Source: Chloroflexota bacterium
Lineage (GTDB): Bacteria; Chloroflexota; Anaerolineae; Anaerolineales; UBA4823
Reading direction: 5' to 3'
Assembly (NCBI GenBank): GCA_030613705.1
Contig: JAUWLJ010000045.1
Span: 1 to 10,115, forward strand
DNA length: 10,115 nt
Every line of letters starts with the position of its first letter. Positions within the stretch are counted from its first letter, which is position 1. Below are positions 1 through 10,115 of the stretch, piece by piece. The position numbers and the translations under genes were made by a program. The notes beneath the pieces are model-generated. The model was given only the letters and a program-made list of their open reading frames with translations. It was not told the DNA's origin and did no database searches.

Positions 1-375
1 AAGGTTGGCGAAGTGAGCCTAAAACGCTCCAGAAGTATAGATAAGAAAAGAAGGTTTTCCCCGCATAAAGGTAATGGCAAAAATCACCGCAAACAAGAAA
101 ATCGCCGTAGAAATGGCAAACCAGATTTTTCGCATGAAGAAGGGATGGTGCGTCTGAGCCTGGCGCACGGCCGCACGCACGGCGTCAGTCCCGGCGAAGT
201 TGTCGGGACGATTGCCTCACGGGCCGATATTCCTGGTTATGTGATTGGTAAAATCTTGATCCGCGACCAGCATACCCTGGTAGACGTGCCGGAAGAATAT
301 GTTTCCCGTGTCTTGGGCCAAACAGGGTCGTATAATTTCCGCGAATACCAGAATGTGACTATCGAACGGGCTTAG
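1..375 (+). CDS. DEAD-box RNA helicase, C-terminal part (DbpA-type RNA-binding domain), 5' truncated by window edge
   Basis: The frame is open from base 1, so this is the last 124 codons of a gene that starts before the window; the first possible start inside (GTG at 13) is not a real start. The first 45 or so residues are a Lys/Arg/Asn-rich basic linker, typical of the segment after the helicase core. The rest, from about MVRLSLAHGRTHGVSPGEVV, matches the DbpA/CsdA RNA-binding domain: the GVSPGEVVGTIA stretch, the ADIPGYVIGKI turn and the LVDVPEEYVSRVL strand-helix are characteristic. Such domains anchor DEAD-box helicases of the DeaD/CshA/DbpA type to structured RNA, for example in ribosome assembly or cold adaptation. 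The helicase core motifs lie outside the window, so the exact subfamily cannot be named. The stop is TAG at 373-375, and a strong hairpin follows 20 bases later. Confidence 0.85.
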   Translation, partial: KVGEVSLKRSRSIDKKRRFSPHKGNGKNHRKQENRRRNGKPDFSHEEGMVRLSLAHGRTHGVSPGEVVGTIASRADIPGYVIGKILIRDQHTLVDVPEEYVSRVLGQTGSYNFREYQNVTIERA

Positions 376-516: not shown

Positions 517-1113
517 TCAAATGGCAGCCACCCAGCCCAAATCTAATTCCTCCAGTTTGTCACGGGTGGGTATGCCAGTTTCGACATCCCAACCGCATAA
601 CTCAAAGTATTTATCCAGCGCGGCCACAACTTCGTCACGGTCGAGCTTCCAACCATCACTCACACCACCCTTCAAAGGTTTGTAGAGTTTCTCTGGCAGC
701 ACATCAGCCCGGCGGTCAATTCCTTCGCGAGCATTGAACGCCCGCATCATATTGAGCCGCCGTTCGCCCACTTTCTGCAGCTCATCAAAATCTACATCTT
801 CCCAACCTGTGACGGTCCGCACCAACTCGACCATATCTTCAGGGCCATAAAGCTGCCAGGCAGGACCATATACAAACTGGCACAGGTTCAGGCTTTCCAT
901 CGCACTATACATGTGTTGGGATACCATAGCGAAACGGATTTTCTCGTCACTCAACGATTGGGGTTCCTGTGCTTTACTGAAGCCTAAAACTGCCATGCGC
1001 TCAGTGTAAAACTCAAAATCGCCTTCGATGGCAGGATCATGCTCGTGAGACTGGTGGTCTGCGCCGAAGGGGTTCGTGGTATTTTTCTCTCCAGATGTTT
1101 TTTCTGGATTATA
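517..1113 (-). pseudogene. Aldehyde:ferredoxin oxidoreductase, C-terminal fragment (5' truncated remnant)
   Basis: The best in-frame ATG is at 996 and gives 159 residues, but the same frame stays open to the stop at 1114-1116. The upstream codons read NPFGADHQSHEHDPAIEG and then DFEFYTER, which is also oxidoreductase-like, so recognisable homology begins near 1080 and no true start exists. Downstream, the ESLNLCQF stretch (Cys at residue 39 from the ATG) corresponds to the C-terminal cysteine ligand of the [4Fe-4S] cluster. The LNMMRAFNAREGIDRRADV and GWDVETGIPTRDKLEELDLG segments are typical of the family's C-terminal domain. Full proteins are about 600 residues, so only the last third or so is present; the N-terminal pterin-binding domain and three cluster cysteines are missing. 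It cannot make an active tungsten/molybdenum enzyme. No promoter is visible for it. A short real protein is possible but unlikely. Confidence 0.75.
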
Positions 1114-1205: not shown

Positions 1206-1244
1206 GAACATAAACGAACATCATTTAAGAAAATAGTCATGTTC
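1206..1244 (+). promoter_or_regulatory. Candidate operator: GAACAT direct repeats plus inverted ATGTTC over the start codon
   Basis: GAACAT occurs at 1206-1211 and 1216-1221, exactly one helical turn apart. Its inverse ATGTTC lies at 1239-1244 and includes the start codon of the regulator. Read on the other strand the core is ATGTTCGTTTATGTTC, similar in style to the TTCGTTT-type repeats bound by several DeoR-family repressors. The position, just downstream of the -10 box, suits autorepression. That the adjacent DeoR protein binds here is inference. Confidence 0.45.
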
Positions 1245-2000
1245 ATTAGCAAACGCCATCAGATAATCCTGGACCGCCTGGATAAGAACGGTTCAATCCA
1301 AGTTGGTGAACTCGTTGATATGTTCGATGTCTCAGAGATGACCATCCGTCGAGACCTGGACATGCTTGAGCGCAAAGGTTTGCTACGCCGGGTACACGGC
1401 GGAGCGGTGTGTAACCGGGGGAGAAGCTACGAACCACCATTTCTTTCTCGTGCTGCTTCTCGCCAGGAACATAAGCAGCGTATAGGCGAAGCAGCCGCCA
1501 AGCTGATCCACAACGGCGACTCGGTCATGTTTGATGTGGGGACAACAACCCTAGAAGTCGCCCGTGCCATCACCAAAAATCAGAATTTAACCGTGCTCAC
1601 CTCTAGCTTTCAGATTGCCGCCTTGCTGGCAGAGCAACCTGAAATACGCTTGATCCTGACAGGCGGTATCCTGCGCCCGGATGAGCTTTCCATGGTGGGG
1701 CATCTAGCGGAGCGGTCGGTGCGAGATTTCTACGTCGACAAGCTCTTTTTAGGAGCAGCGGGGATCGACCTGGATGCCGGGATTACAGAGTTCAACCTGG
1801 AAGATACGCTGGTTAAACAAGCGATGCTAGACCAAGCAAAAGAGATCATCCTGGTCGTCGATGCGCATAAATTTGGCAAGGTTGCTTTTACGGCCATTGC
1901 TCCTATTACCGATGTGCACCATATCGTCACAGATAATGAGCTACCCGCAGAGATAGCTCAGCAGATAGAGCAGATAAATATTGAGCTCACTCTAGCTTGA
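1239..2000 (+). CDS. DeoR-family transcriptional repressor of carbohydrate metabolism
   Basis: This 253-residue protein has the usual DeoR-family length and both domains. Residues 5-57 are a winged helix-turn-helix with recognition helix VSEMTIRRDLDMLE and the family hallmark RRVHGGAV at its end. Residues 78-235 are the DeoRC sensor domain, with FDVGTTTLEVA (98-108), LTSS (120-123), LTGG (140-143), FLGAAGID (170-177) and VVDAHKFGK (206-214), the elements that form the sugar-phosphate pocket. Family members typically repress a nearby sugar or polyol operon and are released by a phosphorylated intermediate. The ligand here is unknown, but the FGGY kinase of the downstream cassette could make it. 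The start codon has only a weak A-rich ribosome site (AAGAAAA), yet the domain begins right after it and no in-frame upstream start is better. The gene has its own promoter and is followed by a 184-bp gap before the cassette. Confidence 0.92.
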   Translation: MFISKRHQIILDRLDKNGSIQVGELVDMFDVSEMTIRRDLDMLERKGLLRRVHGGAVCNRGRSYEPPFLSRAASRQEHKQRIGEAAAKLIHNGDSVMFDVGTTTLEVARAITKNQNLTVLTSSFQIAALLAEQPEIRLILTGGILRPDELSMVGHLAERSVRDFYVDKLFLGAAGIDLDAGITEFNLEDTLVKQAMLDQAKEIILVVDAHKFGKVAFTAIAPITDVHHIVTDNELPAEIAQQIEQINIELTLA

Positions 2001-2184: not shown

Positions 2185-3003
2185 ATGACAGACAAAGTCA
2201 AAGCATGGTTTGGAGTACCCAAAGCAGTTATCGCAATGGCCCATTTCCCCGCTTTGCCCGGCACACCGCGCTATGATCCCAATCAAGGAATTGAAGGGAT
2301 GGTGGAGCTCATGCGCGCTGACATGAATGCTTTGCTTGCGGGTGGCGTGGATGCTATCATGTTTTGCAACGAAGACGATCGCCCTTACTCTTTCCAGGCA
2401 GATTTCGAAGCTGTGGCAGTCATGACCCGGGTGATCGCGGAGCTGCACCCAACCGATCGTCCCTTTGGGGTGGATTTCCTTTGGAATGCCAAAGCACCAC
2501 TGGCGATCGCCAAATCCACCGGGGCATCATTTATCCGCGAGGTTGTGACCGGAGTTTATGAGAGCGACATGGGGCTTTGGTCACCTGACACGGCGGCCAT
2601 CTTCCGCTACCGTCAGCAGATCGACGCTGAAGATGTACGCATCTTCGCTAACATCACTCCAGAGTTCGCCTCCCCACTGGGTAATCGCAGTGTCGCCCAG
2701 CGCGCCCGCAGCACGGTGGTCTCCTCACTTGTTGACGCTATCTTGATAGCTGGACCGATGGCCGGCGCAGAGCCAGACCTTTCCACTGTCCAAGAGGTCA
2801 GGCGGGCTGTTGACGATGATTTCCCAGTTCTACTGAATACCGGCGCTCGGCTGGAAAATATCCGTCATTTTCTCAACGTAACGGATGGGGTAATCGTCGG
2901 TTCCAGCCTGAAAGTCGACGGATACACCTGGAATCCAGTGGATCCTGCACGGGTTAAAGTGTTCATGGATCTGGTCAAGCAAATCCGGAAGGAGATAGCA
3001 TGA
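2185..3003 (+). CDS. BtpA/SgcQ-family TIM-barrel protein
   Basis: The 272-residue product has the length and landmarks of the BtpA family (relatives include E. coli SgcQ and cyanobacterial BtpA). These are the N-terminal AVIAMAHFPALPGTPRYD (14-31), the AIMFCNEDDRPY loop (57-68), PFGVDFLWNAKAP (93-105), IREVVTGVYESDMG (117-130), and the C-terminal VLLNTGARLENI (215-226) with DGVIVGSSLKVDG (234-246), which resembles a phosphate-binding end of a TIM barrel. The biochemical role of the family is not settled. BtpA was linked to photosystem I assembly in cyanobacteria, while SgcQ-type members sit in sugar-uptake operons as here, so an enzyme step on a sugar-derived intermediate is likely (inference). 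The start is supported by GGAGGT at 2175-2180, four bases before the ATG. Its stop overlaps the next start in ATGA (3000-3003), so the two are translationally coupled and probably work together. It is the first gene of the cassette. Confidence 0.88.
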   Translation: MTDKVKAWFGVPKAVIAMAHFPALPGTPRYDPNQGIEGMVELMRADMNALLAGGVDAIMFCNEDDRPYSFQADFEAVAVMTRVIAELHPTDRPFGVDFLWNAKAPLAIAKSTGASFIREVVTGVYESDMGLWSPDTAAIFRYRQQIDAEDVRIFANITPEFASPLGNRSVAQRARSTVVSSLVDAILIAGPMAGAEPDLSTVQEVRRAVDDDFPVLLNTGARLENIRHFLNVTDGVIVGSSLKVDGYTWNPVDPARVKVFMDLVKQIRKEIA

Positions 3004-4508
3004 GCCATGCAGTGTTCTTGGGTATAGACATTGGCACCACAGCCACCAAAGTAATCTTGATCGATACCGAGGGACACATCGTAGGCGAGTCTTCACGGCC
3101 GGCTACCTTGCATTCCCCAAAAGCCAATTGGGCTGAGGAAGATGCCAATGAATGGTGGCGCAACGTATGCCAGGCGGTTCCGGAATGCTTGGTCAAAGCT
3201 GGCGTTGGGGCCTCCCAAGTGCATGCGGTCGGAGTGAGCGGGATGGTACCCACCACCATTCTGGTAGACGAGCAAGGAAAGCCCTTGCGACGTTCAATTC
3301 AGCAGAACGACGCTCGCTCACATGTTGAGATCGATGAGTTCAAGATCAATATGGACGAAAAAGCAGTCTTCCAACGCACCGGCTCAGCTATAACACAGCA
3401 GAGCATCGGCCCGAAACTTCGTTGGATCGCCAAGAATCAACCTGAACTTTACCGTCAGGCTGTGTGGGTGATGGGCTCTTATGATTACATAAATTACAAG
3501 TTGACTGACCAACCAGTATTGGAGAGCAATTGGGCGCTGGAGAGTGGCTTGTACGATCTACACGCTAAGGATTGGATAGGGGAGTTACTCGAGCTTTCCC
3601 ACTTGCGGCGCGATCAGCTACCCCCTGTTTTTAATCCAAGCGAGGTGATTGGAATAATCAGCGCCCAAGCCGCCCGCGAGGCGGGTCTGCAGCAAGGCAC
3701 ACCTGTGGTCGCCGGAAGCGCAGACCATGTAGCTTCGGCATTTTCGGTTGGGCTGAAGGAGAACGGTGACCTACTGGTCAAACTGGGAGGAGCGGGAGAC
3801 ATTCTTTACTCCCTGGATCGCTTGGAGATCGACGAGCGCCTGTTCATCGATTACCACGTTATCCCTGGTTTATTCCTTCTCAACGGATGTATGGCTTCCA
3901 GCGGATCGATAATCAAATGGTTCCGTAACAACTTTGCACCCGAATTGGACTATCCCGCACTGGATGCAGAGGCAGCGGGTATTCCGGCTGGCTCGGGCGG
4001 GGTGGTGCTGCTACCGTATTTCATTGGAGAGAAAACGCCGATTTTCGACCCGCTTGCTCGCGGTATTCTATTTGGCTTGACCCTGCAAAACACACGCGCC
4101 AATATTTACCACGCTATCCTGGAAGGTATTTCCTACGGCTTTTACCAGCACCTAGAAGTGCTCGCTGAACGCGGTTTCAGCATCAACTTGGTACGTGTGG
4201 CGAACGGCGGCGCGCGCAGCGCTTTATGGCGACAAGTAACTGCGGATGTGATCGGCTATCCCTTGGAAGAGGTCGCTAATCACCCCGGATCTTCCCTTGG
4301 AGCAGCCTTCGTAGCCGGTATGGGCGTTAAGGGTTTCGACTCCTGGGAAGATATCGAACGCTATATTCAGGTGGCTGCTGTCACCCAACCCGATATGCAT
4401 AACCATGAGAAGTATAAACAGCTTTTCCAATTGTATAAAGAAATTTACCAGAAAAATAAGCATATTTTCAGGCAACTGGCGAAGATTGAAGGCGTGACAG
4501 CGGAGTAA
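3000..4508 (+). CDS. FGGY-family carbohydrate kinase (xylulokinase-like, substrate unknown)
   Basis: At 502 residues this is a full-length two-domain FGGY kinase. The N-terminal domain opens with the phosphate loop GIDIGTTATKVILID (8-22). GSADHVASAF (239-248) carries the probable catalytic base Asp242. KLGGAGDILY (261-270) and NGGARSALWRQVTADVIG (402-419) are the ATP-side motifs of the C-terminal domain, and HPGSSLGAAFVAG (428-440) is the usual FGGY ending. The family moves the gamma-phosphate of ATP to a sugar or polyol hydroxyl. Where xylulokinases carry the Met-His-Gly sugar signature, this protein reads SGMVPTTILVD (80-90), followed by IQQNDARS (100-107). The closest general class is xylulokinase-like, but I would not call it XylB. 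It overlaps the BtpA gene by four bases and is followed 16 bp later by a permease gene. The product probably feeds central metabolism and may be the inducer of the DeoR-family regulator (inference). Confidence 0.88.
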   Translation: MSHAVFLGIDIGTTATKVILIDTEGHIVGESSRPATLHSPKANWAEEDANEWWRNVCQAVPECLVKAGVGASQVHAVGVSGMVPTTILVDEQGKPLRRSIQQNDARSHVEIDEFKINMDEKAVFQRTGSAITQQSIGPKLRWIAKNQPELYRQAVWVMGSYDYINYKLTDQPVLESNWALESGLYDLHAKDWIGELLELSHLRRDQLPPVFNPSEVIGIISAQAAREAGLQQGTPVVAGSADHVASAFSVGLKENGDLLVKLGGAGDILYSLDRLEIDERLFIDYHVIPGLFLLNGCMASSGSIIKWFRNNFAPELDYPALDAEAAGIPAGSGGVVLLPYFIGEKTPIFDPLARGILFGLTLQNTRANIYHAILEGISYGFYQHLEVLAERGFSINLVRVANGGARSALWRQVTADVIGYPLEEVANHPGSSLGAAFVAGMGVKGFDSWEDIERYIQVAAVTQPDMHNHEKYKQLFQLYKEIYQKNKHIFRQLAKIEGVTAE

Positions 4509-4524
4509 TTGGCAGGAGAGACAG

Positions 4525-5352
4525 ATGCTCATCTCCTTACGAAAAAATATCGGTCTTTACATCACACATGCCATTTTAATCTTGGCAACCCTGTTCGTGC
4601 TATTGCCCATCCTATGGGTAGCGCGCACTTCGCTCGCAAACCGCTTAATCGCATATAAAATCCCGCCGGTCTGGATCTTCACCCCCACCCTGGAAAACTA
4701 TCGCACTATTTTCCAGCAATACCCCTTCCAAAGATATTTCCTCAACAGCCTGGTTGTCGCTTCAGTCGCTAGCCTGATTGCTTTAATCCTTGGATCGCTA
4801 GCCGCCTATTCCATCGCCCGATTCCGAACCGGTGATCCCGTCTTGCGCCTGAGCATGCTCAGCACCCAGATGCTGCCTGCCATTACACTGGTGATTCCGA
4901 TATTCCTGCTCGCCAGGCTGGCCCATTTGTGGGACTCGCCTTTCGCTTTAATCTTGGCCTATTTATCCTTTAATTTACCATATACGATATGGATCCTGAT
5001 CGGATTTTTTCAATCCATACCTGTGGAATTAGAAGAGGCCGCAATGATTGACGGCTGTTCGCGCACCCAGACCCTATGGCGTGTCGTCATCCCTGTAGTT
5101 TTACCTGGATTACTGGCTGCTGGGGTTTTCAACTTCATTCTTAACTGGAACGAATTTCTATTCGCTCTGATATTGACCGGGAGAGACACGCGCACCCTGC
5201 CGGTAGCAGTAGCAGCCCTTTGGACGCAGCAAGGTGTCCAGATTGGGGCGGTCTCGGCTTCCACCGTGCTGGTCGTGCTGCCGGTCATTTTGTTGACCTG
5301 GATTATCCAGAAATCACTGGTGCGCAATTTGACCTTCGGTTCGATTAAATGA
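4525..5352 (+). CDS. Carbohydrate ABC transporter permease, MalG-type (CUT1 family)
   Basis: This is a 275-residue inner-membrane protein with about six hydrophobic spans, roughly at 12-32, 72-95, 108-130, 140-162, 190-212 and 243-263. The cytoplasmic EAA loop that docks the ATPase is clear: EEAAMIDGCSRTQTLWRVVI (170-189) with the conserved EAA...G pattern. The N-terminal WVARTSLAN (31-39) and the basic C-terminus LVRNLTFGSIK (265-275) are typical of MalG-like subunits. It should pair with the MalF-type subunit encoded after the binding protein. AGGAG at 4513-4517 lies just before the ATG. It follows the kinase by 16 bp, so kinase and transporter are co-transcribed. Substrate cannot be read from the sequence. 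No ATPase gene is present in the window, so a shared MsmK/UgpC-like ATPase elsewhere is presumed. Confidence 0.9.
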   Translation: MLISLRKNIGLYITHAILILATLFVLLPILWVARTSLANRLIAYKIPPVWIFTPTLENYRTIFQQYPFQRYFLNSLVVASVASLIALILGSLAAYSIARFRTGDPVLRLSMLSTQMLPAITLVIPIFLLARLAHLWDSPFALILAYLSFNLPYTIWILIGFFQSIPVELEEAAMIDGCSRTQTLWRVVIPVVLPGLLAAGVFNFILNWNEFLFALILTGRDTRTLPVAVAALWTQQGVQIGAVSASTVLVVLPVILLTWIIQKSLVRNLTFGSIK

Positions 5353-5371
5353 CTCGTTGTTCCGTTTTTTC

Positions 5372-5381
5372 AGGAGGTGAT
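5372..5381 (+). promoter_or_regulatory. Perfect 10-base anti-16S (Shine-Dalgarno) match with no well-placed start
   Basis: AGGAGGTGAT is complementary to the 3' end of 16S rRNA (ATCACCTCCT) over ten bases. The following ATG (5380-5382) overlaps its end and is too close for normal initiation. The frame from there (to 5571) runs into the binding-protein gene in another frame and looks non-coding. The rest of the 121-bp gap (5353-5473) holds only a T-run (5365-5370) and the normal GGAGGA (5463-5468) of the next gene. It may be a standby ribosome site, the relic of a lost gene, or chance. Confidence 0.35.
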
Positions 5382-5473
5382 GGTATCGAAAAAATTCCAA
5401 CAACCACCGACCTGCAATGTACAGCAAATAACCAATTATCCACCTTACCATAAAGATTTTCCGGAGGAAAGTC

Positions 5474-6784
5474 ATGAAAAAACGAATACTATTCACCATA
5501 TTCGGCATTCTCATTGTGCTGAGCCTGCTATTGAGTTCATGCCAACCCACCACAACCCAACCCCCAGCTGAGGAACCCACAACGGAAGAACCTGTAGCTG
5601 AGGGAAAGCCCTTCGAGGGCGTCACTATCAATATCATGATGGAGGGCGTCCCCGATACGGAGTTTGTCCAGGAGCTGTTACCCCAATTTGAGGAACAGAC
5701 CGGCATGAAAGTCAACATCGAGGTACTCAACTACGCCATGATGCATGAAAAGCTAGTTCCGCAGCTTACCGCTCCCGAAGGGGGGGGCAGCTACGATGTG
5801 ATCGTGGTCGACAACTACTGGGTGGGCGAGTTCATCTATGCCGACTGGCTAATGGAGCTGGACGACCGTCTAGCCAATAGCGAGACGATAAGTCTGGACG
5901 ACTACTTGCCATCCATGGTCAACATGGTTGGTGTGCTGGGCGACAAAGCCTACATGGTCCCGTTCTACAACTATGCCATGGCGCTGATCTATTGCAACGT
6001 ACCGGAGGTGGAAGGCAAAGTTGGCGAAATACCCAACTCCATCCCAGAGTACGTGGAACTGATCAAAAGCCTGACCGATGCCGACGCTGGTTTTTACGGA
6101 GCTTCGATGATGGGGTTGCGCCCTGACCCAATCACCATGGAGTGGCTCAACTACCTGTATAGTTCAGGCGGTTTGATCTACGATGAAGATTGGAATGTTA
6201 TCGTTAATAACGAGAATGGTGTAGAAGCACTCACTCAGTACGTGGACGCCATGAAGAACGCTGCCTCCTCTGGTGCGCCTGCTTACGGGTTCGACGAGAC
6301 CTTCACAGAAGTGGCCCAGGGTAAAGCCTTCGGCTTCATCACCTTTAACTGGATGCTGCCGCAATTGAACGACCCAGAGATGTCGCAAGTCGTGGATATG
6401 TGTACTGTGACTAGCGTACCAGGCGGCAAAGGCTTACTAGGTGGTTGGGGTTGGGCTATCCCCAAATCTTCACACAGCCCTGATGCAGCCTGGGCTTTCA
6501 TCGAGTGGGCAGAGTCATTCGATGTTGCCAAGGCGCGCGCGCTGGCAGGTGGCGCTCCGACGCGTATAGACGTCTTCGAGGACTCGGATGTATTGGCTGC
6601 ATATCCCTACTACAAGGAAGTCGAACAGATCGTTGGTGAAGCAATTACCTTCCCGATTATGTCCCGCAGCCCTCAAGTAGTCGAGGTTCTCGGACGTGTT
6701 TTATCTGAAGCCGTCATTGGCTCGAAATCTCCTCAAGAAGCGTTAGATGAAGCCGCTGCTGAGCTTGCAGGCCTAGTAGATTAA
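5474..6784 (+). CDS. Extracellular sugar-binding lipoprotein of a CUT1 ABC transporter
   Basis: The 436-residue precursor starts with MKKR and a hydrophobic stretch (5-20) ending in the lipobox LSSC, so Cys23 should become the lipidated N-terminus of the mature protein. A Thr/Pro/Glu-rich flexible linker (24-47) tethers it to the membrane. The remainder is a type I sugar-binding fold: VTINIMMEG (51-59), LLPQFEEQTGMKVNIEVL (69-86), SYDVIVVDNYWVGEF (101-115), and a C-terminal half with GLLGGWGWAIP (319-329) followed by SPDAAWAFIEWA (334-345), which is typical of maltose/oligosaccharide-type binding proteins. It captures the substrate outside the cell and hands it to the two permeases. The strong ribosome site GGAGGA (5463-5468) six bases before the ATG suggests high translation. 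A large hairpin directly downstream may stabilise this part of the mRNA. Confidence 0.92.
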   Translation: MKKRILFTIFGILIVLSLLLSSCQPTTTQPPAEEPTTEEPVAEGKPFEGVTINIMMEGVPDTEFVQELLPQFEEQTGMKVNIEVLNYAMMHEKLVPQLTAPEGGGSYDVIVVDNYWVGEFIYADWLMELDDRLANSETISLDDYLPSMVNMVGVLGDKAYMVPFYNYAMALIYCNVPEVEGKVGEIPNSIPEYVELIKSLTDADAGFYGASMMGLRPDPITMEWLNYLYSSGGLIYDEDWNVIVNNENGVEALTQYVDAMKNAASSGAPAYGFDETFTEVAQGKAFGFITFNWMLPQLNDPEMSQVVDMCTVTSVPGGKGLLGGWGWAIPKSSHSPDAAWAFIEWAESFDVAKARALAGGAPTRIDVFEDSDVLAAYPYYKEVEQIVGEAITFPIMSRSPQVVEVLGRVLSEAVIGSKSPQEALDEAAAELAGLVD

Positions 6785-6803
6785 TCACGTCTAGAATGTT
6801 CCT

Positions 6804-6838
6804 CATCAGTGAGGCGGGCAAAACCCGCCTCACTGATG
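6804..6838 (+). terminator. Perfect 15-bp stem-loop between binding-protein and permease genes (attenuator or mRNA stabiliser)
   Basis: CATCAGTGAGGCGGG (6804-6818) pairs without mismatch to CCCGCCTCACTGATG (6824-6838) around the loop CAAAA. It starts 20 bases after the binding-protein stop. No U-run follows (CAGATAGATTATA), so full intrinsic termination is unlikely. By analogy with the hairpins between malE and malF in enterics, it may protect the upstream message from 3' exonucleases and lower permease output, giving excess binding protein (inference). Confidence 0.75.
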
Positions 6839-6855
6839 CAGATAGATTATACGAA

Positions 6856-7773
6856 ATGAAATCAATCGTAAGAAAGCGCCGGAGTGAAGCGCAGCACAGC
6901 TACCGGCAGTCAGAGCGCAGGCTCCGGATATATCTGATCGTCCCCGCTATCATTGGTATCTGGATGGTAGTTGGTTTTCCATTGTTGTACGCTTTTTATG
7001 TCAGCTTCCACGATTACGTACTGTCTAAAGGTGGATTGGGCGCTGTCAACCTTGCCAACTATCTCAATATATTTGAAGATACCCAATTGCTGGTCGCGAG
7101 TAAGAATACGTTTATTCTGACCTTCAGCGTAGTCAGCTTGGAGTTCTTGATCGCTTTCGGCCTAGCCTTACTGCTAAATAATAAACGCCTGCACGGGGGT
7201 AATATTTATCTGCTGATCCTGCTCATCCCCATGCTGATGCCCCCCATCACCGTTGGTTTGATCTGGCGCATGCTTCTGCACCCCGAGTTGGGTATTATCA
7301 ATTATTCGCTTGGGCTTATTCATATGCCGCAGCCCGCCTGGTTGGGTGACCCACGCCTGGCGATGATTACAATCATCATTGTCGATATCTGGCACGAGAC
7401 ATCCTTCCTGCTGCTGATTCTGCTGGCTGGTCTAACCGCCCTGCCGGACGAGCTTTATGAGGCCGCTGTGATCGATGGCGCTACCAGCAGTCAGAAATTC
7501 CGCTTCCTGACGATCCCATTGATGATGCCCACCATCCTGGTTGCTGTGTTGATCCGCGTGATCGCTGCCCTTAAGACCTACGATCTGATTTATATCTTGA
7601 CACGCGGTGGACCCGGAGTCTCTACCGAGACGATCAGTTACTATATTTATCGAGTTGCCTTCGTCTTCCTAGACATGGGCAAGAGTTCAGCCTTGTCATT
7701 CTTGTTGCTGGTTTTAATCATTATCCTCACCATCATCCTGATGCAAGCAATGCGGTCTGAAGATACAGTTTGA
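6856..7773 (+). CDS. Carbohydrate ABC transporter permease, MalF-type (CUT1 family)
   Basis: I place the start at ATG 6856 (MKSIVRKRRSEAQ, 305 residues). An in-frame ATG at 6796 would add 20 residues, but that stretch is encoded by the perfect hairpin at 6804-6838 and has no homology I recognise; neither start has a good ribosome site. Counting from 6856, six hydrophobic spans lie near 23-50, 85-107, 117-138, 168-192, 221-240 and 278-298. The ATPase-docking EAA loop is LYEAAVIDGATSSQKFRFLT (200-219). A MalF/UgpA-like segment YDLIYILTRGGPG (242-254) precedes the last span. The short basic N-terminus followed by RLRIYLIVPAIIGIW is the normal beginning of this subunit. It pairs with the MalG-type permease encoded upstream of the binding protein. 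The dehydrogenase gene follows after 26 bp. Confidence 0.9.
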   Translation: MKSIVRKRRSEAQHSYRQSERRLRIYLIVPAIIGIWMVVGFPLLYAFYVSFHDYVLSKGGLGAVNLANYLNIFEDTQLLVASKNTFILTFSVVSLEFLIAFGLALLLNNKRLHGGNIYLLILLIPMLMPPITVGLIWRMLLHPELGIINYSLGLIHMPQPAWLGDPRLAMITIIIVDIWHETSFLLLILLAGLTALPDELYEAAVIDGATSSQKFRFLTIPLMMPTILVAVLIRVIAALKTYDLIYILTRGGPGVSTETISYYIYRVAFVFLDMGKSSALSFLLLVLIIILTIILMQAMRSEDTV

Positions 7774-7799
7774 AATGAATAAATGAAGAAAGGAAAACC

Positions 7800-8612
7800 G
7801 TGATCTATTCTTTTGAATCTCATACTGTTGTTGTCACTGGGAGTGGAGCAGGCATTGGGAGAGCCATTGCTTTAGATTTTGCTCACGCTGGTGCCCGTGT
7901 GGCTGTAACCGATATCAACCCATTATTTGCCCAGACCGTTGCTCAGGAGATTGAAGCGTTCGGCGGCCTAGCCTTACCGGCTGAGATGGACGTGTTAAAC
8001 CAAGACCAGATTAAGCAGGTTGTCCAAACCGTGACCGCTCGCTGGGGGCGTATCGATATCTGGATCAACAATGCAGGTGTCAGCAGCATGAACCATTTCC
8101 TCGATTTGAGCGAAGAGGATTGGGACCACAACATGGATATCAACGCAAAGGGGGTGTTCTGCTGCTCCCAGGCAGCCTTGCGCCACATGGTCTCCCAGAA
8201 GCCATATCCTGACAGCGGACTGAGAGGCAAGCTGGTCAACGTCGCCAGCATGGCTGGAAAGCGCGGTAATGCGCCTTTCCTGGCCCATTACGTAGCCTCC
8301 AAGTTCGCTGTGGTTGGAATCACCCAGGCTCTGGCGGGTGAGTTTGCGAGCCAGGGGATTACGGTCAACGCCGTGTGTCCTGGGTACGTCAAGACCGCTA
8401 TGCAGGATCGCGAAGCGGTTTGGGAAGCCCAACTGCGTGGAGGGGATGCCACCCCTAATGAAGTCCGCAAGCTATATATCGCTGATACGCCCTTGGGACG
8501 TCTGGAAACCCCCGAGGACGTCTCTGCCGTGGCGCTCTTCTTAGCCTCTCCTGCAGCCAATTTCATCACCGGCGAGGCTATCAACGTTAATGGTGGCTCG
8601 TGGATGGATTAA
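7800..8612 (+). CDS. Short-chain dehydrogenase/reductase (SDR, classical), probable polyol/sugar dehydrogenase
   Basis: The 270-residue product is a classical SDR. It has the Rossmann glycine motif TGSGAGIG (13-20), Asp38 at the end of the second strand (predicting NAD(H) rather than NADP(H)), Asp64 near the adenine ring and NNAG (90-93). The catalytic residues are Asn115, Ser150, Tyr164 and Lys168, the last two in YVASK. CPGYVKTAM (193-201) follows, with the C-terminal FITGEAINVNGGSWMD. These enzymes interconvert alcohols and ketones. With a sugar transporter and an FGGY kinase in the same operon, oxidation of a polyol or sugar hydroxyl before or after phosphorylation is likely (inference). 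The start is GTG at 7800, supported by AAAGGA about five to ten bases upstream and by the hydrophobic first strand right after it. It lies 26 bp after the permease gene and 6 bp before the phosphatase gene. Confidence 0.92.
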   Translation: MIYSFESHTVVVTGSGAGIGRAIALDFAHAGARVAVTDINPLFAQTVAQEIEAFGGLALPAEMDVLNQDQIKQVVQTVTARWGRIDIWINNAGVSSMNHFLDLSEEDWDHNMDINAKGVFCCSQAALRHMVSQKPYPDSGLRGKLVNVASMAGKRGNAPFLAHYVASKFAVVGITQALAGEFASQGITVNAVCPGYVKTAMQDREAVWEAQLRGGDATPNEVRKLYIADTPLGRLETPEDVSAVALFLASPAANFITGEAINVNGGSWMD

Positions 8613-8618
8613 CCCATT

Positions 8619-9392
8619 ATGCCAGACGAGCTTGATACAGCTATTCAGGCTGCCCGCCGCGCAGGCGAGCTGCTAGGCAAGCATTTTGGCCAGGCCATCC
8701 CCGTAGTTTATAAAGGCCGGATCGATCCCGTCACCGAGCTGGATCGCCAGGCCGAGCACTTGATCGCAGATATTTTACTGCAAACTTTCCCCACCTACAG
8801 TCTATTGGGTGAGGAGGAACACCATCCCCAAACCAATGGCCGCCCGCGCTGGCTCGTCGATCCCCTAGATGGTACCACCAATTATGCCCACGGATATCCT
8901 TTGTTCGCCGTATCGATTGCGTTGGAAGTTGAGCGCCAAGTAATCCTAGGTGTGGTTTACAATCCGATCCTGGATGAGCTATTCACCGCTGAGGTCGAGC
9001 AAGGGGCTTTCTTAAATGGCTGTCCTATTAGGGTTTCAAAAGTTGGAGATCTGGGCAAATCGCTAATCGCCTCCGGCTTTCCATACGATGCTTGGACCAG
9101 TGAGAACGACAATGTTGTTGAGTGGGGGCGCTTAGTCAAGATGGTGCTTAGCCCGCGCTGCGACGGTTGCGCCTCATTAGACTTGTGCCATGTAGCCGCT
9201 GGACGATTGGATGGCTACTGGGAGCTCGATCTGGAGCCATGGGATATGGCCGCCGGGGTGCTCATCGCGACGGAAGCTGGCGCCAGGGTCACAGATGCTA
9301 TAGGGGAAGCCTTTGACCTGTATGAACGCTCTGTGCTGGCTGCCAATACTAGCTTACACCAGGAATTGTTTCGATTTCTTAAAGCCACATGA
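8619..9392 (+). CDS. Inositol-monophosphatase-family sugar phosphatase
   Basis: The 257-residue protein has all metal-binding elements of the IMPase family: GEEEH (64-68, Glu65), WLVDPLDGTTNYAHG (78-92, with Asp81, Asp84, Gly85 and Thr86), and the second signature EPWDMAAGVLIATEAGARV (206-224, Asp209). LDLCHVAAGRLDGYWE (187-202) is also typical. Family members are Mg-dependent and dephosphorylate inositol 1-phosphate, fructose-1,6-bisphosphate, histidinol phosphate or other sugar phosphates, and primary sequence does not separate these. The position, six bases after the dehydrogenase stop with no ribosome site of its own, implies translational coupling and a role in the same pathway. Next to a kinase this may relieve sugar-phosphate stress, or it may act on a phosphorylated substrate or a different intermediate. 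It is the last intact gene of the cassette. Confidence 0.9.
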   Translation: MPDELDTAIQAARRAGELLGKHFGQAIPVVYKGRIDPVTELDRQAEHLIADILLQTFPTYSLLGEEEHHPQTNGRPRWLVDPLDGTTNYAHGYPLFAVSIALEVERQVILGVVYNPILDELFTAEVEQGAFLNGCPIRVSKVGDLGKSLIASGFPYDAWTSENDNVVEWGRLVKMVLSPRCDGCASLDLCHVAAGRLDGYWELDLEPWDMAAGVLIATEAGARVTDAIGEAFDLYERSVLAANTSLHQELFRFLKAT

Positions 9393-9488: not shown

Positions 9489-9620
9489 TTGACATTCAAT
9501 AATTGGTCAGAATCAATTCTCAAGGACAATCCAGACACCCGCCCGGGTTATCTGTTTGGCTCACAGGTAGAGGGAGGAACAGGTACACTGAGCGATGCTG
9601 ACTTTTGGGTGCTGTGGTGG
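9489..9620 (+). pseudogene. Nucleotidyltransferase (MNT/MinT-like) N-terminal fragment
   Basis: From TTG 9489 the frame encodes NWSESILKDNPDTRPGYLFG and then SQVEGGTGTLSDADFWVL. This contains an exact GSx10DxD motif (Gly24-Ser25, Asp36, Asp38), the catalytic signature of small nucleotidyltransferases of the MNT antitoxin / KNTase-like type. After about residue 43 the sequence loses any resemblance to the family, and the frame ends at 9746 with unrelated residues. The rest of the domain, including the third catalytic acidic residue, is absent. There is no ribosome site and no partner HEPN gene. I read it as a truncated remnant joined to the PIG-L fragment that follows; the exact break near 9610-9620 is approximate. 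Confidence 0.5.
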
Positions 9621-9651
9621 AGCTGCCCCAGTATTATCGGCCAAGCATTCC

Positions 9652-9900
9652 ATGGACATACTCATCACGAACAAACTACACTCTTTACAAAGTTTTACAT
9701 TTTCCAAATTACTCCGAATCTTAGTTCTGGCCCCTCACCCGGATGACTTCGACGCGATCGGGGTAAGCATGCGTAATTTCTGGAAAAACGGGAATCCACT
9801 GTACCTGGCGGTGGCTACTTCGGGTGAAGATAGAGAGGGCGTCATCCAGATCTCCCAGGACGCGAATATCTACGCCGCCAGACTCATGAATTCAGAATAA
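9652..9900 (+). pseudogene. PIG-L/LmbE-family deacetylase, N-terminal fragment
   Basis: From ATG 9652, residues 19-33 (KLLRILVLAPHPDDF) hold the first strand and the zinc-binding HPDD (29-32) of PIG-L/LmbE N-acetylglucosaminyl deacetylases. They are followed by DAIGVSMRNFWKNGNPLYLA (33-52) and VATSG (54-58), all expected at this point of the family. The frame stops after only 82 residues, against roughly 220-280 for complete members; the second metal-binding region and the rest of the fold are missing. The last stretch, EGVIQISQDANIYAARL, is not one I can place and could reflect an internal deletion. The frame is open back to 9595, in a different phase from the nucleotidyltransferase fragment. 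It cannot encode a functional deacetylase. Confidence 0.6.
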
Positions 9901-10115
9901 ATGGTGTTTACGAATAGTGCGGACAGGCAGGGCCTGGCAAGGATGATAGTGGTCGGTTAGGGCGTTGATCACGTGATTCTTCATGTAGTGCGCAAACTCG
10001 TCTACAATTTCTTGTCCAAACGTGCGAATGAACAGTACATCGCAATAGCGGTCAATCACTCGGGCTGTATCACTTATGGGTTCACCCCGCCCGAGCTGCA
10101 TCTCCTCTGGACGCA
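9892..10115 (-). pseudogene. argF: Ornithine carbamoyltransferase, C-terminally truncated fragment running off the right edge
   Basis: On the minus strand the frame is open from the window edge (codons RPEE precede the ATG at 10101, which is therefore internal). It reads MQLGRGEPISDTARVIDRY, then VLFIRTFGQ, VINALTD and HPCQAL; the HPCQ (codons near 9934-9945) is the carbamoyl-phosphate/ornithine-site signature of this enzyme. After HPCQAL the expected Ala-Asp-Leu-Leu is replaced by Pro-Val-Arg, a TIRKH stretch still fits, and the frame ends at 9892-9894. Complete enzymes are about 310 residues with HPCQ near residue 133, so the ornithine-binding half is absent. The end overlaps the tail of the PIG-L fragment by nine bases. 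It may be a decayed duplicate, with the working argF elsewhere. Confidence 0.75.

Follow-up and report, generated by a model that had tools for sequence, protein, structure and literature searches.

A conserved BtpA-kinase-dehydrogenase cassette in a Chloroflexota genome as a candidate polyol-catabolism operon with an added BtpA step

Pentitols such as ribitol are classically catabolized from a single operon, as in Klebsiella, whose ribitol dehydrogenase belongs to the short-chain dehydrogenase/reductase (SDR) type. A ribitol locus made up of ribitol 2-dehydrogenase, D-ribulokinase and a polyol permease is also mentioned in passages of PMC12307932. The function of the sgc genes of Escherichia coli is, by contrast, not established according to the accessible portion of PMC13343008, deletion mutants growing normally under the conditions used. 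Here we describe a window, the whole 10,115-base contig C32 of a Chloroflexota metagenome-assembled genome (58% complete, 351 contigs), in which seven plus-strand genes spanning 2185-9392 encode in order a BtpA-family protein, an FGGY carbohydrate kinase, an ATP-binding cassette (ABC) permease, a solute-binding protein, a second permease, an SDR and an inositol-monophosphatase-family phosphatase (IMPase). A sequence-only reading of this DNA had proposed such a single-strand cassette and had added that it matches no known catabolic pathway. Open reading frame (ORF) calls and family profile scores confirm the cassette; the second statement goes too far, since the SDR and the FGGY kinase form the kernel of classical pentitol catabolism, which a polyol importer completes, and ribitol is the ligand in the nearest solved binding protein. 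We conclude that the cassette is real and conserved, and that it is probably a polyol operon in which a BtpA step would be added to known pentitol logic.

The combination of BtpA, kinase and SDR, hereafter the trio, is not unique to this genome. Among the best 80 of 109 BtpA relatives retrieved in one scan of genome contigs, the closest of which are labelled Chloroflexi/Anaerolineae, the whole trio was found at 38 loci. When one best match per locus was counted at fixed thresholds, and loci were required to offer 1.5 kb of room or more, a kinase immediately followed BtpA in 46 of 69; these 46 include L004, whose kinase belongs to a sister group, and exclude L016, whose split kinase was added in the trio count. 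An SDR accompanied 37 of the 44 kinase-positive loci with room. Plasmids carry the trio too: those of Thermus thermophilus and Rhizobium leguminosarum Norway, those of Rhizobium ruizarguesonis and Salipiger with a divergent SDR, and one of Labrenzia in which BtpA stands at the remote end of the gene cluster. The trio thus spans no fewer than four phyla (Chloroflexota, Actinomycetota, Deinococcota and Pseudomonadota), and the co-occurrence asked about in the sequence-only reading is a conserved one; Acidobacteria were left uncounted because the loci so titled (L038, L047 and L050) group with Acidimicrobiaceae in the kinase tree.

The same linkage was met from the kinase side, where 150 genomes of the same class searched at E <= 1e-110 yielded 15 matches, one of them the window. 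All eight kinases at 58-63% identity have BtpA directly upstream. Those at 49-51% identity lie in six kinase-SDR sets, five with permease matches next to the kinase in the stretch examined; BtpA belongs to the operon in G047, G178, G083 and G139, in G081 its C-terminal part is present, cut by the start of the contig, and the contig of G159 ends inside the kinase before any BtpA. Altogether BtpA was in the operon in 13 of 13 resolvable non-self cases and an SDR in 13 of 14 (G048 has none in the 16 kb read), counts that are not independent of those from the BtpA side because several of the genomes contribute the same contigs to both. BtpA, kinase, SDR and an upstream DeoR regulator diverge in step, with pairwise-distance correlations of 0.81-0.87 across 36 loci plus the window (37 sets), which is not proof of function because it also reflects species relatedness.

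This regulator gene, which the seven-gene set of the sequence-only reading did not include, stands 184 bp upstream of BtpA on the same strand. Its best NCBIfam match is AgaR (230.3 bits, below the cut-off of 260), and in 46 of 74 related loci with room BtpA is immediately preceded by a same-strand DeoR match, so that the protein is probably the regulator of the operon. In the SDR, the TGxxxGIG and S-Y-K patterns are kept in 44 of 44 sequences examined, that of the window included.

The kinase matches 3IFR at 412 bits against 213 bits for E. coli XylB, and its assignment to the XylB equivalog was rejected (TIGR01312, 358.6 bits, below the cut-off of 380.25). Cassette kinases carry, with variation, the motifs GMVP, QQND, NWALESG, SADH and KLGGAGD, unlike E. 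coli XylB, at positions that we take to contact the substrate. They form one group in the kinase tree, with a sister group drawn from the BtpA loci L004, L033, L068, L080, L082 and L086, so that most BtpA-locus kinases fall in two sister groups apart from XylB. 3IFR itself is listed under xylulokinase in the accessible part of PMC3245297. A gene for an SgcX-like M42 hydrolase accompanies BtpA in L004, L033, L037, L068 and L080, together with a sister-group kinase in all of these except L037. At two loci (L102, 12787-14282; L016, 2950-4424) the FGGY kinase is read in two frames, which may reflect a broken gene or a sequencing error.

The binding protein has 5iai as its best solved match, both by sequence and by structure, and 5IAI is described in the accessible part of PMC8468352 as a ribitol complex. 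A relative 92% identical to the 5IAI protein is encoded on R. leguminosarum pRLN4 with DeoR, SDR, BtpA and FGGY genes within 16 kb. Taken together, the kinase-BtpA linkage, the SDR and this Rhizobium near-copy of a ribitol binder narrow the likely substrate of BtpA to a phosphorylated sugar derived from a polyol. No ABC ATPase was present among the window ORFs scanned; the best ATPase match in the genome (48%, contig C100) adjoins a different binding protein and permease, so that no partner is shown in a genome of such limited completeness. Six other trio loci (L038, L042, L046, L047, L053 and L058), in Acidimicrobiaceae-like metagenome-assembled genomes, have an upstream GH20 hexosaminidase and a peptide-type ABC importer, which suggests an amino-sugar source there; five of the six also carry a GNAT gene.

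As to BtpA, the window protein passes the curated cut-offs of PF03437 (230 against 30 bits) and TIGR00259 (226 against 153) and falls below that of the photosystem I biogenesis BtpA equivalog NF045918 (163.6 against 400). It belongs to the SgcQ subfamily, sharing N156, E160 and an NTG pattern with SgcQ and not with the Haloferax or Rhizobium pRL9-type BtpA. Its AlphaFold2 model (pLDDT 95.7) finds its best fold matches, at superfamily level only (TM 0.5-0.6), in HPS-PHI, ThiE and KDPGal aldolase, and also matches GGGPS; from this model BtpA is predicted to be a phosphate-binding TIM barrel with the fold of phosphosugar enzymes. A single-sequence search of solved structures gave no match to E 10, a profile search gave TrpA as its best, weak hit (E 0.019), and no close relative appeared in the structural searches, an absence that proves nothing. 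The earlier view that the family has no settled reaction still holds.

On balance the evidence tips slightly towards an operon of polyol catabolism whose substrate is most likely a pentitol, for instance ribitol or a closely related compound, with BtpA acting on a phosphosugar. What the data show is which genes are present, their conserved linkage, the barrel fold predicted for BtpA and the motifs kept in SDR, kinase and IMPase. The route that we infer, from its substrates and cofactor to the order of its steps, would begin with import of the polyol by the binding protein and two permeases together with an ATPase encoded elsewhere. The SDR, probably NAD-dependent, would oxidize the polyol to a ketose and the FGGY kinase would convert it to a ketose phosphate, which BtpA may bind in a ribulose-phosphate-type barrel and turn, by epimerization, isomerization or cleavage, into a form usable by central metabolism. 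A place for BtpA after phosphorylation fits the E. coli sgc genes, because there a phosphotransferase system (PTS) stands in the kinase's place beside SgcQ. The IMPase would be an accessory enzyme that dephosphorylates a different intermediate, most likely the imported compound in phosphorylated form, and the DeoR regulator probably senses a phosphosugar.

Several observations weigh against this scheme. With only about 27-28% identity to the 5IAI ribitol binder, the window protein may have another ligand, and the lead of 5iai by sequence is small (136.9 bits against 131.7 for a trehalose/maltose binder). The transporters in the 38 trio loci are varied, with an amino-acid permease in four, the peptide-type ABC importer and GH20 in six, and none recognised in nine. 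Under the fixed-threshold rule 23 of the 69 BtpA loci with room show no kinase directly beside BtpA, and the kinases of L025, L035, L077, L078 and L087 belong to neither of the two BtpA-linked groups. Structural matches of BtpA do not go below superfamily level; other BtpA subfamilies adjoin IF-2B proteins, peptidases, TenA or PfkB kinases; and the cyanobacterial BtpA is reported, in the accessible text of PMC11449065, to stabilise glutamyl-tRNA reductase (GluTR). Finally, ribitol as the substrate would yield D-ribulose-5-phosphate, needing no BtpA step.

How the phosphatase fits is a question in itself. The sequence-only reading had supposed that a kinase and a phosphatase in one operon would oppose each other unless they act on different intermediates. 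Opposition need not arise: in many trio loci no phosphatase is seen, and in others the phosphatase has a different fold. An IMPase match is absent from 12 trio loci with a sugar importer, some of them possibly cut short; an HAD phosphatase gene adjoins the trio kinase in Salipiger and Labrenzia, and weakly scoring metallophosphoesterase-like genes occur in L016, L063, L069, L074 and L076 (L063 has neither kinase nor SDR in the stretch examined). Because the IMPase is optional and other phosphatase folds stand beside the trio elsewhere, its point of action is probably the entry step or a different intermediate. One could go further and suppose, as a possible though doubtful alternative, that the substrate enters as a polyol phosphate ester, which the IMPase, HAD or metallophosphoesterase dephosphorylates first, before the SDR, the kinase and BtpA, so that kinase and phosphatase would act on different positions. 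The changing phosphatase folds would suit such an entry, as would a second ABC importer in two IMPase-bearing loci (L009 and L128) whose binding protein is related to the AfuA and 2-aminoethylphosphonate (2-AEP) organophosphate binders (best solved match 5t1p, 175.7 bits; AfuA 4r72, 75.5 bits; PhnS-type NCBIfam scores below cut-off). AfuABC is described as a sugar-phosphate importer in the accessible part of PMC4546632. Yet the same binding-protein family includes iron, sulfate and polyamine binders, which leaves the ligand class unproven, the window has a sugar-type importer only, L123-L127 carry the second importer with a xylose-isomerase-like gene in place of an IMPase match, and the 12 sugar-importer loci also speak against it.

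A second alternative, which we hold unlikely, would make BtpA a non-enzyme that stabilises or scaffolds the kinase or the dehydrogenase, the pathway being an ordinary two-enzyme pentitol route; SDR and FGGY kinase alone could indeed yield ribulose-5-phosphate from ribitol, and the cyanobacterial BtpA interacts with the GluTR that it stabilises (same portion of PMC11449065). Its conservation argues otherwise. Two alignments of chosen sequences were made, of 71 and 68 members out of 94 locus proteins or 120 listed proteins, and over the 68 there are 34 invariant columns, with polar residues at or just past the strand ends of the model (H20, N62, E63, R118, N156, E160 and N218). Of the four core genes BtpA has also diverged least, with a mean distance of 0.355 against 0.39 for the SDR, 0.48 for the kinase and 0.51 for the regulator, so that it evolves more slowly than its supposed clients, and its predicted fold is that of small-molecule phosphosugar enzymes.

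A third alternative makes the IMPase a general gene, SuhB-like or histidinol-phosphatase-like, that merely sits in the operon. Its family is broad and many relatives have no match to it, but this reading seems improbable, as the protein falls far below the equivalog cut-offs of SuhB and HisN (186.3 against 332 and 165.7 against 275.15, on which both assignments were rejected) and an IMPase recurs on the same strand downstream of the trio, behind varying intervening genes, in nine loci (L002, L003, L005, L006, L009, L012, L016, L022 and L128). The IMPase of L009 lies just past the first stretch and was seen in L145; in L019 and L076 the gene is divergent, L019 being cut before the SDR. Behind the same-strand IMPase there is no close same-strand ORF in four of eight loci checked; in L022 it is followed by a ROK kinase and importer genes. 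All ten IMPases examined, including that of the window, keep DPLDGT and WDxAAG, which are presumably metal-site motifs.

Other branches of the BtpA family have their own surroundings. In L025, L026, L035, L040 and L044 no cassette kinase lies directly beside BtpA, and one or two IF-2B-family genes (two of these were scanned) adjoin it; an M29 aminopeptidase-type gene is also near in all of these except L040. A distant subfamily (30-36% identity) is found in L105 (Rhizobium johnstonii 3841 pRL9), L106 and L107 among phosphotriesterase-like, glutamine amidotransferase, PfkB/ribokinase and ABC genes, with TenA in L105 and L106. An IMPase is present in L105 as well, so that BtpA, a kinase and an IMPase recur together there.

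The remaining features of the window are collected in Table 1. From BtpA to the IMPase the genes are separated by a 4-bp overlap and then by 16, 121, 71 or 11, 26 and 6 bp. These gaps agree with the tight spacing claimed earlier, and the 71-bp figure holds only with the second permease starting at 6856, the first in-frame ATG at 6796 leaving 11 bp; by eye, no obvious ribosome-binding site precedes either start. The aldehyde ferredoxin oxidoreductase piece looks like a truncated relic because in-frame stops lie upstream. Rfam and tRNA scans gave no lead.

Table 1. Genes and gene fragments in the window, with the profile matches and patterns on which they were assigned
Gene	Feature	Position	Strand	Basis and remarks
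	DbpA RNA-binding domain, probable DEAD-box helicase end	1-375	+	open at contig start
	C-terminal piece of aldehyde ferredoxin oxidoreductase	517-996	-	AFOR_C profile positions 245-385; beside DeoR gene
R	DeoR/GlpR-family regulator	1239-2000	+	DeoRC 184.7 bits, HTH_DeoR 73.3 bits
B	BtpA/SgcQ-family protein	2185-3003	+	PF03437 230 bits, TIGR00259 226 bits
K	FGGY carbohydrate kinase, 3IFR-like subfamily	3000-4508	+	FGGY_N/FGGY_C
G	ABC permease, MalG/GlcU type	4525-5352	+	PF00528 72.7; GlcU 92 and MalG 85, both sub-cut-off
S	Solute-binding protein	5474-6784	+	lipobox by eye; nearest solved relative a ribitol complex
F	ABC permease, UgpA/MalF type	6796-7773, alternative start 6856	+	PF00528 58.9; UgpA 106 and MalF 98, both sub-cut-off
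D	SDR dehydrogenase, GTG start	7800-8612	+	adh_short_C2 205 bits; TGxxxGIG and S-Y-K patterns
P	Inositol-monophosphatase-family phosphatase (IMPase)	8619-9392	+	PF00459 228 bits against 27; DPLDGT, WDxAAG
	Short fragment-like ORF, PIG-L deacetylase match	9595-9900	+	sub-threshold, 17.8 against 28.2 bits
	Ornithine/aspartate carbamoyltransferase N-domain fragment	9898-10113	-	cut by contig end

We found no published description of the cassette in the open-access papers searched, nor one among them joining three of the terms BtpA, FGGY, short-chain dehydrogenase and polyol, and the words BtpA and FGGY are absent from the accessible text of PMC3599248 on the Sinorhizobium meliloti erythritol/adonitol/L-arabitol locus, which was considered as a possible instance of the same system. 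The first two enzymatic steps of the inferred route follow classical pentitol logic. BtpA/SgcQ proteins occur in archaea as well as in E. coli and cyanobacteria, and the main value of the cassette is a metabolic setting in which the role of BtpA becomes testable with three enzymes and a short list of substrates. It is tempting to speculate, though we would hold this only tentatively, that BtpA of the SgcQ type is a phosphosugar enzyme not yet described, acting as an epimerase, isomerase or aldolase and central to a widespread polyol route, which would also explain E. coli sgc, and that the Rhizobium and Salipiger trios consume the ribityl chain set free from a nitrogen heterocycle such as flavin or lumazine; both lie among amidohydrolase or amidase and allophanate-hydrolase genes, joined in Rhizobium by oxidoreductase genes.

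Set beside the known systems, the cassette shares the PF03437 family with the photosystem I biogenesis BtpA of cyanobacteria and differs from it in that the role reported there is GluTR stability. E. coli sgc (sgcR, E, A, Q, C, B, X) comes nearer, with a regulator gene, SgcR being of DeoR type, and a BtpA of the same subfamily at 41% identity; it differs in that a PTS replaces the ABC importer and the kinase, in its M42-like hydrolase SgcX and epimerase-like SgcE, and in the stretch seen it has no SDR or FGGY gene. Conversely, no PTS IIABC, M42-type SgcX or SgcE epimerase was found among the scanned ORFs of the window. The R. leguminosarum pRLN4 cassette (L150) has the regulator (36% identity), SDR (50%), BtpA (47%), FGGY kinase (42%) and a sugar ABC importer in common with ours, but it has its own ATPase, no annotated IMPase, and a setting of amidohydrolase, isochorismatase-family, allophanate hydrolase, FAD oxidoreductase and questin oxidase genes. 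On T. thermophilus pHB5018c (L092) the genes run in one direction as DeoR-BtpA-FGGY-SDR-permease-binding protein-permease, with the SDR before the importer, an ATPase of its own, a xylose-isomerase-like gene and no annotated IMPase. The classical pentitol operon likewise unites an SDR dehydrogenase, an FGGY kinase and a polyol-type importer; compared with it, the importer genes of the window sit between kinase and SDR, the importer is of the binding-protein-dependent ABC type, the kinase is 3IFR-like and scores below the XylB cut-off, and the cassette adds BtpA and often a phosphatase.

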